NCBI GenBank assembly: GCA_020631555.1
Contig: JAHDGY010000005.1
Location: 1-64,000 of the forward strand
Direction: 5' to 3'
Source: Flavobacteriales bacterium
GTDB taxonomy: Bacteria; Bacteroidota; Bacteroidia; Flavobacteriales_D; Parvicellaceae
DNA: 64,000 bases
Position 1 is the stretch's first letter, and each line of letters begins with the position of its first letter. Position numbers and translations under genes: made by a program. Below are positions 1,533 through 10,067 of this stretch, one piece after another. Below the pieces are notes generated by a model that searched no databases, was not told where the DNA came from, and worked only from the letters and a program-made list of their open reading frames with translations.

Positions 1533-4500
1533 ATGTCAGGACCTAAGAAATTTGGCGCATTTGCAGGAGTTTACACCCCATCGATTCTCACCATTCTTGG
1601 AGTAATCATGTACATGAGAATGGGATGGGTAGTTGGAAACTCAGGGCTGTTTTTTGTAATACTCATTGTTTTATTGGCCCATGTAATTTCTGTTACTACC
1701 GGATTGAGCGTCTCTTCGGTTGCCACGGACAAGAAAATTGAAGCGGGTGGGATATATTACATGTTGTCCCGAAGTTTAGGATTGCCAATAGGGGGAGCAA
1801 TTGGGGTTACACTTTTTGTTGGAACAGCCCTTAGTATTTCTCTGTATTTGATCGGTTTCGCAGAAAGCTTTAATGACGTAGTTGGCGAAGCCATTGGATT
1901 GGGAAAATCGCTAAATGGATACAGAATCACAGGTACTATAACCTTAATTTTTATTTCAATTCTGGCCTTTATAAGTACTTCTATTGCGATCAAGTCTCAG
2001 TTTTTAATTTTGGCTGCAATTGTACTCTCATTGATCTCCATATTTTTAGGATCATCCACTGGGGTAGAATTTGATATTTCCGGGACAATACAGGAGCCAG
2101 TATCTCTTGAAAAAGTATTTGGAATATTTTTCCCGGCCGTTACGGGATTCACTGCGGGTGTGGCTATGTCTGGTGATTTAAAGAACCCGAAACGAGCTAT
2201 TCCTTATGGAACCATTTTGGCTATTGCTACAGGGCTGGTCGTGTATTTGATTCTCGCAGTTTTTATTGATGCAACTATACCTTATGAAGCTTTATTGCAG
2301 GACAATGCAGTGTTGGTCAAGATTGCACGGTTTCCGGTTTTGGTAATTGCCGGAATTTGGGGCGCAACGGTGTCTTCTGCTCTTGGTGGAATTTTGGGAG
2401 CCCCCCGGATTTTACAGGCGATGTCGATGGATAAAATAACGCCGAAAATTTTTGGTAAAGGCGTAGGTTTATCCAACGAACCCAGAAATGCGTTGATTCT
2501 CACTTTTGTAATTGCAGAGGTAGGGATTTTAATTGGAGAATTAGATGTGATTGCGGAAGTGGTTGCAATGTTTTATTTAGCGGCCTATGGTTTTATCAAC
2601 TTAGCTTGTTTTTTGGAGAGTTGGGCTAGTACCGATTTCCTGCCATCATTTAAAATCCCTAAGTGGATTTCAATCATCGGAGCAGTTGCAACATTCTTCA
2701 TAATGTTCAAATTGAACGCGGCGGCAATGGTAGTGGCATTCTTAGTTATTGGGGGGATATTTGCCTTTCTGGCACGTCGCGAAATTGCCTTGGGGTCGGG
2801 AGATGTGTGGCAAAGTGTATGGTCTTCAATTGTAAAGTCAGGTTTGCGCCGAATGGACCAAAAGCAGATGCACAAAAGGAATTGGGAACCCAATATCCTA
2901 TTGTTCAGTGGCGGAACTGAAGCACGGCCGCATCTTATAGAATTTGGAAAGGACTTGGCCGGAAATCTTGGAATGGTTTCCAATTTTGATTTGATTGAGA
3001 CGCCGAATGCTAACGTTCTGTTCCCGAAGCATCAGCAGTCGGTAAAAGACGTTAAGCTGCAGGAAAGAGGGATATTTGCACGTCGTCAGGAATGTCAGAA
3101 TATTTTTAAGGGAATTGAGGCAATTGCAAGTACGTACGGGTTCTCAGGAATAGAACCGAATACGGTGTTGATGGGGTGGGCAAGAAACACAAAAGACCCC
3201 ATCTTCTTTGCTCAAATGACCAGCAAATTACATGCATTAGACTACAATGTATTGTACTTAGATTATGATGCGGAAAGAGGATTTGGTCGGTCTCAGCGTA
3301 TTGATATTTGGTGGGATCATTTTGGAAATACAGCCGAGTTGACTCTATATCTTGCTCGTTTTATGCTAGCTTCAATCACATGGCGAAATGCAGCAGTGCG
3401 ATTGTTTTTTGTGAACAATGAAAATGCCAAGAAAGGTGCAATTGAAAGTGCCGTTAGAAATCAATTACAAGACTATCGGATTCCAATAAGTTTCAAAGTT
3501 GTTAATAATGAGGTGGATCGTAAATCTAATTATGATCTAATGAAATTTGCCTCTGAGGATGCCGATCTTATAATTACCGGAATTCCAATTATTGAAAGTG
3601 GCCAAGAGGCGAGTTTTGTGCAACGAACTAACGAACTATTGGATCTAATTGGGACAACTGTATTGGTAAAGGCGTCTTCGCATTTCGAAGGAGCAAAAAT
3701 CAAATTGACGGATAAGTTCCAGTCAGAGTGGACCGAGAATGTTGATCGAGAAGCAGAGGAGGTGCAATTGGAATTGCCCAAGTCCGTGGAACTGAATAAG
3801 GAGGTTTCTGATTTGAGTTCAAAGGTTCATGCTTTGCTTACAGATTTGATTGATGGTAACTTTAAGAATCTTGCTGGGTTTTACGAATCTATAGTTTCGG
3901 AGTTTGTCCAGAATAGCCATAAAGATGGTTCTAAAAAAGGTTTCGAGGTGTTGCGCCAAGTGTTGCTGGACAATGAGTCTGAACTAGAAACTCTTGGTGT
4001 TGAATTTAGAAGCGAACTAGATCGGTTTCGTTCTGCCTTAAAGGATCTTGTGGACGGTCTGCCTAAATCGGTCAGAAGATATTTAGATGTTGACGATATC
4101 GTGGTAAAAGATTCCGATACAGCTATTATCAGGAGGATAAAATGGCTACGGAAACGTAGGGCTAAAGTGGTTGGTTCGATAGGTTCAACCAGGGTTAGAT
4201 TCAGAGATGTTGTAGCGCATAATATCAACAATAATTTGCTTGCAACTCTTCATAAAACGTTAAACGTACTTGCCACGGCTGGCAACCTTGTAAATCGTGC
4301 TTTTGATGAGGCAACCCTTACCTATGATAGAGAAGGTGAAGCTGTTGAGGATAGTGGGTTGCGTCAGATGATCCAGCTTCAGTTAAATCTTATTCGGCAG
4401 GCGAGTTCTAATCTCAATGCAACATTTATTGGTGCTGTTACCAATGATGTGAATAGGCTGGACATTAATGCCGCGATTCAGAAAAGACAAGAAGAATCTA

Positions 4501-6470
4501 GGACCAGAAAGTTGAAAGAGGTCAATGGACGGCTAAATGTTTTAGCCGATAGCTGGGGACATAATCAATTAATTCTGCTTCAGCGGGTTCAATTGTCTGT
4601 TTATTTGTTGGAATACCGAAATTCTATAAAAGAAGTTGTCAACGAATTAACGGAGGAGGTAGGCAACCAATTGTTTAATCGTCTTAGTGTTAATTTGTCT
4701 TCGCTGGAAATGATGTTAGAGCCAGAACACAATTCGGCAGGTCTGGAGGAGATGTTGGTACAATTTGAAGATTGGGATTCGCTCGCATCAGAATTGCCTG
4801 CGGTATTTGCTTCGGTTGAATCGAATGTTGAAGAACAGCTTTCAGCATTGCCAGAGGAATTAGATGTGATGATTTCAAGCGCATCTGATAATGCTTCTGC
4901 GGCACTTGCGACCAAAACAATTGAGTTAAGAAATGTTGTAGAGTTTCAGACGTTTAAGGCTTTAATTGAACCGGTAAGAAATGCGATTCAGCAGACGGCC
5001 ACTACGCTGAAACGAATAGGTTTTGAATTTCAAAATTCAATTGGGCAATTGGAGTCCGGAGAGCAATCAAGAATTTCTGACCACTTAGAGGAAATTAAAA
5101 GCAAAATTGCTGCTACCCGAAGTAGTTTAGACGAAACCTTTAACCATTTGAAAGCTGCCAACGCCGGATTTTTATCCGACGTTGAATCAAGTGTTGGGTT
5201 GGATAATTTACAATACCATTCGGATAAATACGGAGAAGATGCGCACAGGATCGTAAGGGCCAATTTATTGCGTAGGACCGTTAACAGATTGGCGAATTCG
5301 TATAGGGTTTGGGCTTACGAAATAGGGCAAAAAATAAGGGCTACTCAAGAGCAATTGGTTTTATCAGAATTTGAAGCCAACCAGAAAAGCAAATTGGGGC
5401 CGCATGAAGTTGTACGGTCTTATCTGCACAATGCCACACCACATTCAACTGCAGAGAGGCAACTTCCTGACTACTACAAACAATTGTTTATTGGCAAGTA
5501 TCATGCTCCTTCACAACCGGCGCCTGAGCGGGCAGCAGAATTGGAGCAGGCTCAAGCGGCGTTGGAGCGTATAAAATCAGGGTCGGGAGGCGCGTTGCTT
5601 ATCACAGGAGACTCGCTTAGTGGAAAAACTTATTTGACCGAGAATATATTAAACCGTCAAAGAGAGCGAATACTAAAAATTGCGGCTCCGATTGGTGGCA
5701 GCTGTTCTTCACGAGTATTCAATAAAATTTTGGCCGCACAACTTGGAGGTTCTGTTCAAGAGCAATTGTCTCAGTCAAACGAGCGTTTAATTTTGTTTTT
5801 TACGGATTTGGAACTTTGGTGGGAAAGAAGCATAGAAGGTCAAAGCGTAATTATGGAATTACGGTCGCTGGTGGAGTCTTTTGGAAAGAAACACATTTTC
5901 ATTTTAGAATCCGGATTGCCATTTTATAACTTCCAAAGAATCTTCCACAATTTTGATTCAATGCTCGTTGGTACAATATCATGTTTGCCGTTAAGTCAGT
6001 CTTATTTCGAGTCCATAATTCTGGAAAGACATAAAATTGGTGGAGTCCCATTTATTTATAAGAATAAGGAGGAAGATGAATTGTCTGGCCGCAAGCAAAA
6101 CGCATTGTTAAGACAACATTATTGGCGTGCCAAGGGCAACATCGGTGTTGGATTGGCGGGCTGGTTAGGTGGGGTTACTAGTTTTGATAACCGATATATT
6201 GAAATCCGTGGTCCGCAGCAAGACGAATTCCCAGCCAATGTTCCAGAAGAATGGTTGGTTATATTGGCTCAGATAATGTTGCATCGACAGGTGACATGGA
6301 CCAAATTATTTAGATTATTTGGTTTGGAAGAAAATAGAGGGCTCAGAGACACGATGAACGCACTTTTTAGAGTTGGCCTAGTTGTAGAAATTTCTGATAA
6401 TGTTTTTAAGATTAACTCATTTGTTGTGGGAGGATTAGAAGATCTGTTGCGGGCTAAGAAAATGATTTAA
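1533..6470 (+). CDS. Cation-chloride cotransporter-like (SLC12/APC) protein fused to a helical region and P-loop ATPase module
   Basis: This 1645-residue protein has three parts. Residues about 8-430 form a roughly 12-helix APC-superfamily transporter of the Na-K-Cl type, starting KKFGAFAGVYTPSILTILGV and MYMRMGWVVGNSGL, diagnostic for SLC12 relatives. Residues about 450-740 resemble the cytosolic C-terminal domain of eukaryotic SLC12 carriers (NILLFSGGTEARPHLIEFGK; later DPIFFAQMTSKLHALDYNVLY). Residues about 750-1330 are long charged helices, likely coiled coil. Residues about 1340-1645 hold a P-loop ATPase: Walker A GDSLSGKT at 1359-1366, a Walker B-like LILFFTDLE with Asp1425, and a C-terminal segment like a winged helix. 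Family knowledge predicts electroneutral ion symport; the ATPase part is my inference from motifs and could be STAND/AAA-like signalling rather than pumping. The next gene, an MscS-like channel, starts on the base after the stop. No truncation is seen. Confidence 0.8.
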   Translation: MSGPKKFGAFAGVYTPSILTILGVIMYMRMGWVVGNSGLFFVILIVLLAHVISVTTGLSVSSVATDKKIEAGGIYYMLSRSLGLPIGGAIGVTLFVGTALSISLYLIGFAESFNDVVGEAIGLGKSLNGYRITGTITLIFISILAFISTSIAIKSQFLILAAIVLSLISIFLGSSTGVEFDISGTIQEPVSLEKVFGIFFPAVTGFTAGVAMSGDLKNPKRAIPYGTILAIATGLVVYLILAVFIDATIPYEALLQDNAVLVKIARFPVLVIAGIWGATVSSALGGILGAPRILQAMSMDKITPKIFGKGVGLSNEPRNALILTFVIAEVGILIGELDVIAEVVAMFYLAAYGFINLACFLESWASTDFLPSFKIPKWISIIGAVATFFIMFKLNAAAMVVAFLVIGGIFAFLARREIALGSGDVWQSVWSSIVKSGLRRMDQKQMHKRNWEPNILLFSGGTEARPHLIEFGKDLAGNLGMVSNFDLIETPNANVLFPKHQQSVKDVKLQERGIFARRQECQNIFKGIEAIASTYGFSGIEPNTVLMGWARNTKDPIFFAQMTSKLHALDYNVLYLDYDAERGFGRSQRIDIWWDHFGNTAELTLYLARFMLASITWRNAAVRLFFVNNENAKKGAIESAVRNQLQDYRIPISFKVVNNEVDRKSNYDLMKFASEDADLIITGIPIIESGQEASFVQRTNELLDLIGTTVLVKASSHFEGAKIKLTDKFQSEWTENVDREAEEVQLELPKSVELNKEVSDLSSKVHALLTDLIDGNFKNLAGFYESIVSEFVQNSHKDGSKKGFEVLRQVLLDNESELETLGVEFRSELDRFRSALKDLVDGLPKSVRRYLDVDDIVVKDSDTAIIRRIKWLRKRRAKVVGSIGSTRVRFRDVVAHNINNNLLATLHKTLNVLATAGNLVNRAFDEATLTYDREGEAVEDSGLRQMIQLQLNLIRQASSNLNATFIGAVTNDVNRLDINAAIQKRQEESRTRKLKEVNGRLNVLADSWGHNQLILLQRVQLSVYLLEYRNSIKEVVNELTEEVGNQLFNRLSVNLSSLEMMLEPEHNSAGLEEMLVQFEDWDSLASELPAVFASVESNVEEQLSALPEELDVMISSASDNASAALATKTIELRNVVEFQTFKALIEPVRNAIQQTATTLKRIGFEFQNSIGQLESGEQSRISDHLEEIKSKIAATRSSLDETFNHLKAANAGFLSDVESSVGLDNLQYHSDKYGEDAHRIVRANLLRRTVNRLANSYRVWAYEIGQKIRATQEQLVLSEFEANQKSKLGPHEVVRSYLHNATPHSTAERQLPDYYKQLFIGKYHAPSQPAPERAAELEQAQAALERIKSGSGGALLITGDSLSGKTYLTENILNRQRERILKIAAPIGGSCSSRVFNKILAAQLGGSVQEQLSQSNERLILFFTDLELWWERSIEGQSVIMELRSLVESFGKKHIFILESGLPFYNFQRIFHNFDSMLVGTISCLPLSQSYFESIILERHKIGGVPFIYKNKEEDELSGRKQNALLRQHYWRAKGNIGVGLAGWLGGVTSFDNRYIEIRGPQQDEFPANVPEEWLVILAQIMLHRQVTWTKLFRLFGLEENRGLRDTMNALFRVGLVVEISDNVFKINSFVVGGLEDLLRAKKMI

Positions 6471-7211
6471 ATGCAATTAACAGAAGTAAATATCAACAGC
6501 CTCTTAGGTTTAGTATTTTGGATCATTGGCATTGCCCTGGCGGTCAAATTATTTTGGTTTGTGGCAGATAAAGTCTGGAAGATTCTGTTTCAAGAAGCTA
6601 AAATGAGAGAATTATGGAGGCACTATAGTTATTTGGCGGAGGGAATGAGTTGGTGTTTGTTTGTTGGTTTAATCATTTTTAGAACTGTTTCTTCCTTATC
6701 GTTTATTGGAGTTATTATTGTGCTGGTAGTTATTGCGGCAAGTTGGAATTTCGTCACTAATTATGTTTGCGGATTGGTGGTTTTGAGTCAGGCTAATTAC
6801 GTGTTGGGAAGTCGCTTAACAGTAGGTACGGTTTGTGGCGAAATCAAAAGTTGCCTTCGCACAACGATGCTACTTGAAGCAGAAGACGGAACGCAAACTT
6901 ATGTGCCATACGTACAATTACTCAGAAAGTCCGTAAGTAAATCTGTACTGCTAGATTCTATTGAAGCGGCCACTTTTGAGGTCAGATTAAATTCTCACAA
7001 AGCTGGTGCAGCTTCAATTAGAGATCAGGTGATGCGACACGTTACTTCCTTGCCATGGTCGCTCGTTCATCGAATACCAGTTGTAGAAATTAAGGAGAGC
7101 AATGACAAGGGGATAGTTTTGTTAGTAAAGTCCTTTTCCTTGTCAAAACATACCGCTAATCTAATTAAAGAGTCCGTTTATTGTTTTGTAGATTCTAATT
7201 TTTGCCAATAA
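6471..7211 (+). CDS. MscS-like mechanosensitive channel domain protein
   Basis: A 246-residue membrane protein. Hydrophobic segments lie at about residues 10-33, 56-74 and 78-104, followed by a beta-type domain with the MscS pattern: VLGSRLTVGTVCGEIKSCLR then EAEDGTQTYVPYVQLL, corresponding to G.I..I..R.T.L...DG....P...L in that family. MscS channels open under membrane tension and release solutes in hypo-osmotic shock. The ATG directly follows the TAA of the cotransporter/ATPase gene with no gap, which implies translational coupling and a shared job in ion or volume balance. The C-terminal alpha/beta domain is short compared with full MscS (about 286). It could serve as a subunit or sensor rather than a free-standing pore. 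Confidence 0.75.
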   Translation: MQLTEVNINSLLGLVFWIIGIALAVKLFWFVADKVWKILFQEAKMRELWRHYSYLAEGMSWCLFVGLIIFRTVSSLSFIGVIIVLVVIAASWNFVTNYVCGLVVLSQANYVLGSRLTVGTVCGEIKSCLRTTMLLEAEDGTQTYVPYVQLLRKSVSKSVLLDSIEAATFEVRLNSHKAGAASIRDQVMRHVTSLPWSLVHRIPVVEIKESNDKGIVLLVKSFSLSKHTANLIKESVYCFVDSNFCQ

Positions 7212-9273: not shown

Positions 9274-10067
9274 ATGAATACGATCAAAAACTACGGTTCT
9301 TAAAAAAGTAACACCATCGTCAACAAAGATTCATGACCTATTAGTAGGAAGAGGTGAACAAGTAATTAATGATCATATTGCACTACGGACGATTAATCAT
9401 CCTAAGGTTAATATTGACGTCCTTTATAAAATGTTCTTGGAAGCAGGTTGTGTGAAAAAGCAAACCTATGTTTTTGAAGAAAAACAATTGGATGCGGCGC
9501 ACTTTGAATTGGAAGATAATCCGCATGCGCCCAAAGCGTTTATTAGCGAGTTGCGATTAGAATCATTCTCGTCATTTGTTCAGGAAATTATCAACGAAGC
9601 AATCGATCAAATTCCGGTCGGATTGGTCAATTTTGGGTCGGTTATTTTTTCGGGAAGAACTTGGGGAACAATTAGCCACGACGTCTACGAAAAGCTCAGA
9701 AGCGAATCGGAATATGCCGCTTGGTTTTACGTATTATGGATACGGAGCAAATCATTTCACCATTAATGTTAATGAGCTGAAGTCAATTGAGAATCTTGCG
9801 GAGTTCAATGAGCTTTTAAAGGAACAGGGGTTTGTAATGAATTCATCTGGTGGAGAAATCAAAGGAAGTAAGGGAGTGATGTTACAGCAATCGAGTATTC
9901 TTGCGGATAAAATGAACGTATTCTTTAAGGAAGGACATCGGGAAGCACCTTCTTGTTATTACGAATTTGCAGAAAGATTTCCTATGGATAACGGTGAGCT
10001 TTACAGTGGGTTTGTGGCAAAGTTGGCAGATAAAATTTGTGAAAGTACCGACAATAAAGTAGCCTAA
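9274..10067 (+). pseudogene. DUF1338 family (YdcJ/HglS-like) gene with two frameshifts
   Basis: The reading frames together encode a DUF1338 protein, the family of iron-dependent 2-oxoadipate dioxygenase/decarboxylases. Recognisable blocks are VINDHIALRTINHPKVNIDV, KAFISELRLES, ESEYAAWFYV, YGYGANHFTINVNELK, NSSGGEIKGSKGVMLQQSS and SCYYEFAERFP. The ATG at 9274 reads only nine codons before a stop; the family frame resumes after a one-base shift near 9286-9299, and perhaps some N-terminal codons are gone. A second shift lies at about 9736-9742, where one extra T separates ...WFYV from YGYGANHF. Metal ligands (His in NDHIA, His in ANHFT, Glu in YEFAER) survive in the combined translation. Both lesions are single-base, so the gene died recently or the sequence has errors. 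Confidence 0.8.

Follow-up and report, generated by a model that had tools for sequence, protein, structure and literature searches.

We describe a two-gene locus of a Flavobacteriales bacterium (assembly GCA_020631555.1) that encodes an SLC12-like transporter fused through a long helical arm to an AAA+/winged-helix ATPase, followed by an MscS-like membrane protein. The arm-AAA+ domain and the MscS-like gene form a conserved core across Bacteroidota, and the transporter attached to this core differs between lineages. We favor, with some confidence, the view that the two proteins make up one ion- and volume-control unit under joint regulation by the MscS-like protein and the arm-AAA+ part. A broader proposal, which we regard as about evenly balanced, is that the AAA+ helical-arm protein and its MscS-like partner constitute a previously undescribed plug-in module of Bacteroidota, attached to unrelated carriers (NKCC-like transporters, Na+/H+ exchangers) and setting their activity by membrane state and nucleotide status. 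It is the system that is new, its parts belonging to known families; a search of open-licence papers found no description of the SLC12/arm/AAA+/MscS arrangement.

An SLC12-AAA+ fusion gene and its MscS-like partner

The window analyzed is a stretch of 64,000 nucleotides (contig JAHDGY010000005.1), and all features of the gene pair described below lie on its + strand. ORF1 (positions 1533–6470, stop codon TAA) encodes a protein of 1645 aa, containing the SLC12-like transporter, the helical arm and the AAA+/winged-helix ATPase. ORF2 (6471–7211) encodes the MscS-like membrane protein of 246 aa, and its ATG at 6471 begins at the base directly 3′ of the ORF1 stop. The gene coordinates, lengths and order given in a first-pass annotation, made from the sequence alone, were correct, and its division of the two proteins into domains was borne out by Pfam, PDB comparison and Foldseek. 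The profile search that it had proposed for each domain returned matches to AA_permease, SLC12 and AAA_16 in ORF1, all above the Pfam curated cut-offs, and to MscS through a family profile of ORF2. A promoter scan upstream of the locus gave no signal above chance.

The architecture of ORF1 is genuine and old. Single ORFs of 1630–1720 aa are present in many genomes, including that of the isolate Phaeodactylibacter xiamenensis, and we therefore dismissed a chance or assembly artefact; misassembly was ruled out by the same architecture in independent genomes, one of them this isolate. About 40 full-length relatives in this size range align end to end, from sources including P. xiamenensis, Aureispira, Lutibacter, and metagenome-assembled genomes of Saprospiraceae and Flavobacteriales (for all other records, lineages are given in relation to the host). 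Of 60 genomes related to that of the host, 35 contain the ATPase region, nearly always within one ORF of ~1640–1700 aa, and none of the relatives searched has more than one copy.

The SLC12-like transporter head

The head of ORF1 shows the features of the SLC12 class, an APC-type transmembrane domain (residues 13–452, positions 1569–2888; PF00324, AA_permease, E = 1e-47) followed by an SLC12-type cytosolic C-terminal domain (residues 453–740, positions 2889–3752). The Pfam SLC12 match within the latter (PF03522, E = 4e-7) spans residues 465–552, and alignment with KCC4 extends through residue 654. The NCBIfam model for K-Cl cotransporters (TIGR00930) matched residues 4–552 with E = 1e-117, yet below its own cut-off. 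In the PDB comparison the head grouped with NKCC1/KCC structures (E about 1e-76).

Comparison with the ion sites of NKCC1 (PMC7889885) showed that ORF1 has in common with the SLC12 carriers (NKCC1, NCC, KCC; TC 2.A.30) the serines of the Na+ site (S281/S282), the Tyr, Pro and Thr of the K+ site (Y105/P201/T204), the Gly and Tyr of the Cl− site (G205/Y352), and the Arg-Glu pair of the outer gate (R29/E111). Across 40 family members none of these residues varies, except that one sequence is gapped at the N-terminal sites. Two TM1 positions are substituted relative to NKCC1 (Asn298 to Thr, Trp300 to Leu), both of which contribute only backbone groups in NKCC1 (PMC7889885). From the invariance of the NKCC-type ion-site residues we predict that the head is active as a chloride symporter, coupled to Na+ and probably also carrying K+. 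The head is also the slowest-evolving part of the system (mean distance 0.67, compared with 2.2–3.5), with the arm, ATPase and MscS-like partner diverging 3–5 times faster in pairwise distance.

Stand-alone SLC12-like carriers of ~750 aa, with no ATPase part, are also found in the same order (G039, G046, G050 C101 and G054); the copy in G054 contains one internal stop.

The helical arm and the AAA+/winged-helix domain

An AlphaFold2 model of residues 700–1645 (mean pLDDT 82) is mostly helical to about residue 1290; the remainder is made up of the AAA+ and winged-helix domains. The ~550 residues of helices between the SLC12 and AAA+ parts constitute an all-helical arm (residues about 745–1290, positions 3765–5402), in which the model shows two bundles of helices and some small beta hairpins. 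Searches of the arm against Pfam and further family collections gave no family match. Its only apparent relatives, apolipoprotein-like or designed-helix proteins, were judged coincidences, and an internal duplication was set aside as weak (E = 6e-4, in a single comparison). Because the arm is without known relatives, its role as a lever is only a guess.

The AAA+ P-loop domain comprises residues about 1330–1545 (positions 5520–6167), and its fold was confirmed by a match to AAA_16 (PF13191, residues 1331–1409, E = 1e-8) and by Foldseek, in which it was nearest to archaeal ORC/Cdc6 (E = 9e-9), related initiators, and the archaeal ATPase 2qen. The family was placed by this fold comparison, as sequence comparison of the ATPase profile with the PDB gave generic P-loops only. 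It is followed by a winged-helix domain (residues about 1567–1645, positions 6231–6467), assigned from the AlphaFold2 secondary structure and from Foldseek matches that have a C-terminal winged helix. The P-loop ATPase of the first-pass annotation, there called perhaps STAND-like, is thus an AAA+ protein of the ORC/Cdc6/STAND-like kind, and the structure prediction it had called for over this region returned an AAA+ domain with a winged helix.

Two motifs read earlier, the Walker A GDSLSGKT (residues 1359–1366, positions 5607–5630) and Asp1425, were both confirmed in the ORF1 translation. The Walker B region (residues 1420–1430, positions 5790–5822) contains Asp1425 and Glu1427, and has Thr1424 at the usual position of the first acid. 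A G-N-x-G motif (residues 1535–1538, positions 6135–6146) occupies the usual sensor-2 position. The P-loop, the C-terminal winged helix and the sensor-2 G-N motif are shared with the AAA+ initiator clade and STAND-like NTPases (ORC/Cdc6, 2qen, AAA_16, AAA_22). Unlike these proteins, the ORF1 family is fused to a transporter through an arm that has no known relatives, and some of its members have degenerate Walker motifs.

Of 43 members of the SLC12 type, 37 have the Walker lysine and 40 have Asp1425. In the family overall, the lysine is missing in 19 of 78 members, and it was lost at least five times on the tree. We consider it likely that the AAA+ domain is a nucleotide-binding switch. Whether it hydrolyzes ATP is uncertain, because of the loss of the lysine in these 19 members and the Thr at the first Walker B acid position, and the ATP-driven switch proposed in the earlier reading is for these reasons unsupported. 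In lineages that lack the Walker lysine, the domain probably works by structure or by nucleotide binding alone, and not by hydrolysis. Six loci (L061, L062 and L063 from one genus, together with L052, L076 and L077) are natural Walker mutants of the system, in which the Walker A lysine is replaced by Tyr, Met, Ser or Ala or the motif is disrupted, and the whole fusion is intact.

The MscS-like partner

The AlphaFold2 model of ORF2 (mean pLDDT 89) and sequence alignment place transmembrane helices at residues 8–106 (positions 6492–6788), followed by an MscS beta-domain (residues about 110–157, positions 6798–6941) and, in the model, a C-terminal alpha/beta domain (residues about 165–244, positions 6963–7202). 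ORF2 alone matched PF00924 only weakly (E = 0.004, under the Pfam cut-off). Homology to the membrane and beta-domains of MscS was established by a family profile, which reached MscS with E = 4e-17, and by Foldseek, which matched the model to MscS/YnaI with E about 7e-12.

Members of the partner family have 11–22% identity to the window protein, with the consensus G-W-x4-N-x-F-x-G-I. They share with the MscS family (MscS, YnaI) the membrane helices, the beta-domain and the short C-terminal alpha/beta domain. They differ from E. coli MscS in being very divergent, in not keeping the Gly/Ala-rich TM3 pattern (as judged by eye), in having a near-constant AAA+ partner, and in the loss of the beta-domain in two loci. 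MscK is a ligand-influenced relative of MscS. In the two loci (L129, 3429–3986; L143, 3438–4001), partners of 185–187 aa retain the membrane helices and C-terminal domain, and sit beside a Na+/H+ exchanger gene. Having lost the beta-domain, the shortened partner may not form a channel there. Tension-gated release, a part of the first-pass reading, is likewise unsupported.

Conservation of the core pair in Bacteroidota

A phylum-wide profile search showed that the arm-AAA+ region also occurs in proteins of about 1000 aa that lack the SLC12 head, and in proteins with a different head. We surveyed the neighborhoods of 85 loci, 82 of them with an assessable neighbor (some are near-identical, and not all are independent). 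By profile, an MscS-like gene adjoins the ATPase gene on the same strand in 78 of the 82, usually overlapping it or within a few bases. The remaining four are L134, in which the adjacent MscS-like gene was hidden by a start miscall, L050, with an in-frame fusion, and the two loci with shortened relatives, L129 and L143. At L050 (2997–8698), the gene is split inside the arm and its AAA+ part is in frame with the MscS-like gene; this arrangement requires two frame changes in one assembly, possibly a sequencing artefact, and was left out of the evidence.

A class-level sample contributed 16 distinct further loci (one of 17 repeats L040), in 13 of which the MscS-like gene is adjacent. The three exceptions (L170–L172) represent one family, and five of six genomes of that family contain the same type of MscS at an unlinked position. 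In these unlinked loci (L183–L187), the partner-type MscS lies beside a second MscS, usually together with a NhaC antiporter.

Neither of the outcomes that the first-pass annotation had named as refuting its reading was seen: the ATPase region has a family match, and the two genes, for which it had suggested a survey across Bacteroidota, are usually adjacent. Adjacency shows co-inheritance, and not direct contact.

Exchange of the attached transporter

In a ~1500-aa version of the core protein, the N-terminal head is a Na+/H+ exchanger (PF00999, E = 7e-19). All six of the exchanger-fused loci contain, in order, a CPA-like gene, the exchanger-arm-AAA+ fusion, the MscS-like gene, TrkH and TrkA. 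They group together as a single clade on the ATPase tree (100/98), distinct from the lineage of SLC12 fusions. In 10 loci a Na+/H+ exchanger is encoded by a gene of its own, next to or near the pair. A NhaC gene precedes the SLC12-fused locus L040, and in the family of the three exceptions NhaC likewise adjoins the partner MscS at its unlinked position. CorA is found beside the pair in three loci (L114, L116, L174), and at L132 a different membrane head is paired with TrkH and TrkA. In many relatives of the core, no transporter is fused or visible in the neighborhood, and the tree indicates that inside the SLC12 group the head was lost once, in L051/L079, which retained the pair.

For an action of the core on ion transport, this swapping of transporters across lineages is the most forceful evidence, and the coupling of ion transport to the MscS-like partner has good support. 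The same core is associated with Na+/H+ exchangers, TrkH/TrkA, NhaC and CorA, fused or adjacent, which supports the joint role in ion homeostasis first suggested from the window alone. At L114 and L174, further MscS-like genes are clustered with the ATPase-MscS pair and the CorA-type metal transporter.

Proposed mechanism and alternative explanations

In the mechanism that we propose, the ORF1 head would act as an NKCC-like symporter, most likely moving Cl− with Na+ and probably K+. Its cytosolic domain runs on into the long helical arm, ending in the AAA+/winged-helix nucleotide-binding domain, and ORF2, an MscS-fold membrane protein, would work with the arm and the AAA+ domain. The MscS-like protein may sense the state of the membrane, be it tension or osmotic load, and could also be a route of solute release in its own right. 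By way of the arm and the nucleotide-binding domain, membrane state and ATP/ADP status would reach the transporter and determine how active it is, and uptake and release would thereby come under common control. In this scheme the components, their arrangement and conservation, and the exchange of transporters are observed, whereas the direction of signaling, the part played by ATP and the opening of a channel are inferred.

The arm-AAA+ protein could instead chiefly gate or assemble the MscS-like channel under nucleotide or ligand control, with the transporters joined for co-expression only and unregulated. This is in keeping with a constant MscS-like partner and transporters missing from many loci, and with the intact pair of L051/L079 after loss of the SLC12 head. 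It also fits the correlated divergence of arm and MscS, which goes further than the head accounts for (0.46 by partial rank correlation; 0 of 500 permutations); this correlation lends mild support to contact between the two and speaks for our proposed unit as well. We nevertheless think this alternative unlikely: the core is covalently joined to transporters of at least two unrelated families and has TrkH/TrkA, NhaC and CorA as neighbors, which exceeds the needs of co-expression, and two loci dropped the beta-domain of the partner yet retained the exchanger gene.

The top structural matches of the AAA+/winged-helix part, archaeal ORC/Cdc6 and related initiators, could point to a DNA- or envelope-associated role unrelated to ion flux, with the head as a mere membrane anchor. 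An inert anchor would not be expected to have essentially invariant ion residues and to be the slowest-evolving part, and the neighboring genes encode ion transporters; we consider this reading very improbable. Hardly any weight is given to a role in defence or abortive infection, in which a STAND-like NTPase would open a membrane channel upon infection. Channel-forming effectors occur in defence systems, and STAND-like (nSTAND) NTPase profiles matched some members weakly. PADLOC, however, gave no match for the window proteins (one relative gave a weak match, E = 2e-4), no repeat sensor domain was found in them, and the relatives searched carry no more than one copy of the system, with a conserved neighborhood and heads with intact ion sites. 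A defence role was rejected on the PADLOC result and the stability of the locus.

Relation to known systems

Considered as an ion- and volume-control unit, the pair can be compared with several known systems. The ORF1 head is like the SLC12 carriers in its transmembrane fold and C-terminal domain; unlike them, ORF1 has an extra ~900 residues, comprising the arm and AAA+ domain, and an MscS-like partner. The first-pass annotation held that known SLC12 carriers are regulated by separate kinases and have no ATPase domain. Animal SLC12 carriers are indeed kinase-regulated, but the implied absence of nucleotide handling needs refinement, as KCC1 is also regulated by ATP/ADP bound within the C-terminal domain of the carrier itself (PMC8280820). 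This provides a precedent, in another form, for SLC12 carriers under nucleotide control. TrkA/KTN, which serves TrkH, resembles the ORF1 family in being a cytosolic nucleotide-binding control part on an ion transporter, but has a Rossmann fold, whereas the ORF1 part is AAA+ and is paired with an MscS-like protein.

If our reading is correct, the locus would be a bacterial counterpart of cell-volume control, with uptake carriers and a mechanosensitive-type protein in one genetic unit, and a single regulatory module would be reused across unrelated transporters. For SLC12-type carriers this would mean direct regulation without kinases. How the sensing of volume is conveyed to a transporter, a question of long standing, could then be approached by genetic and structural work in a simple cell.

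Inheritance of the locus

Upstream of ORF1 lies a CoA-transferase gene (258–1343, − strand), which is kept in 20 of 23 host-family loci in addition to the window. Conservation of this neighbor in the host family indicates that the locus is stable and mainly vertically inherited. The ATPases of two host-family members, L060 and L064, group with Flavobacteriaceae sequences, which suggests occasional horizontal transfer. Elsewhere in the window (9431–10067), two overlapping frames (9431–9766 and 9576–10067) read like one protein frameshifted near position 9755, which we take to resemble the DUF1338 family.
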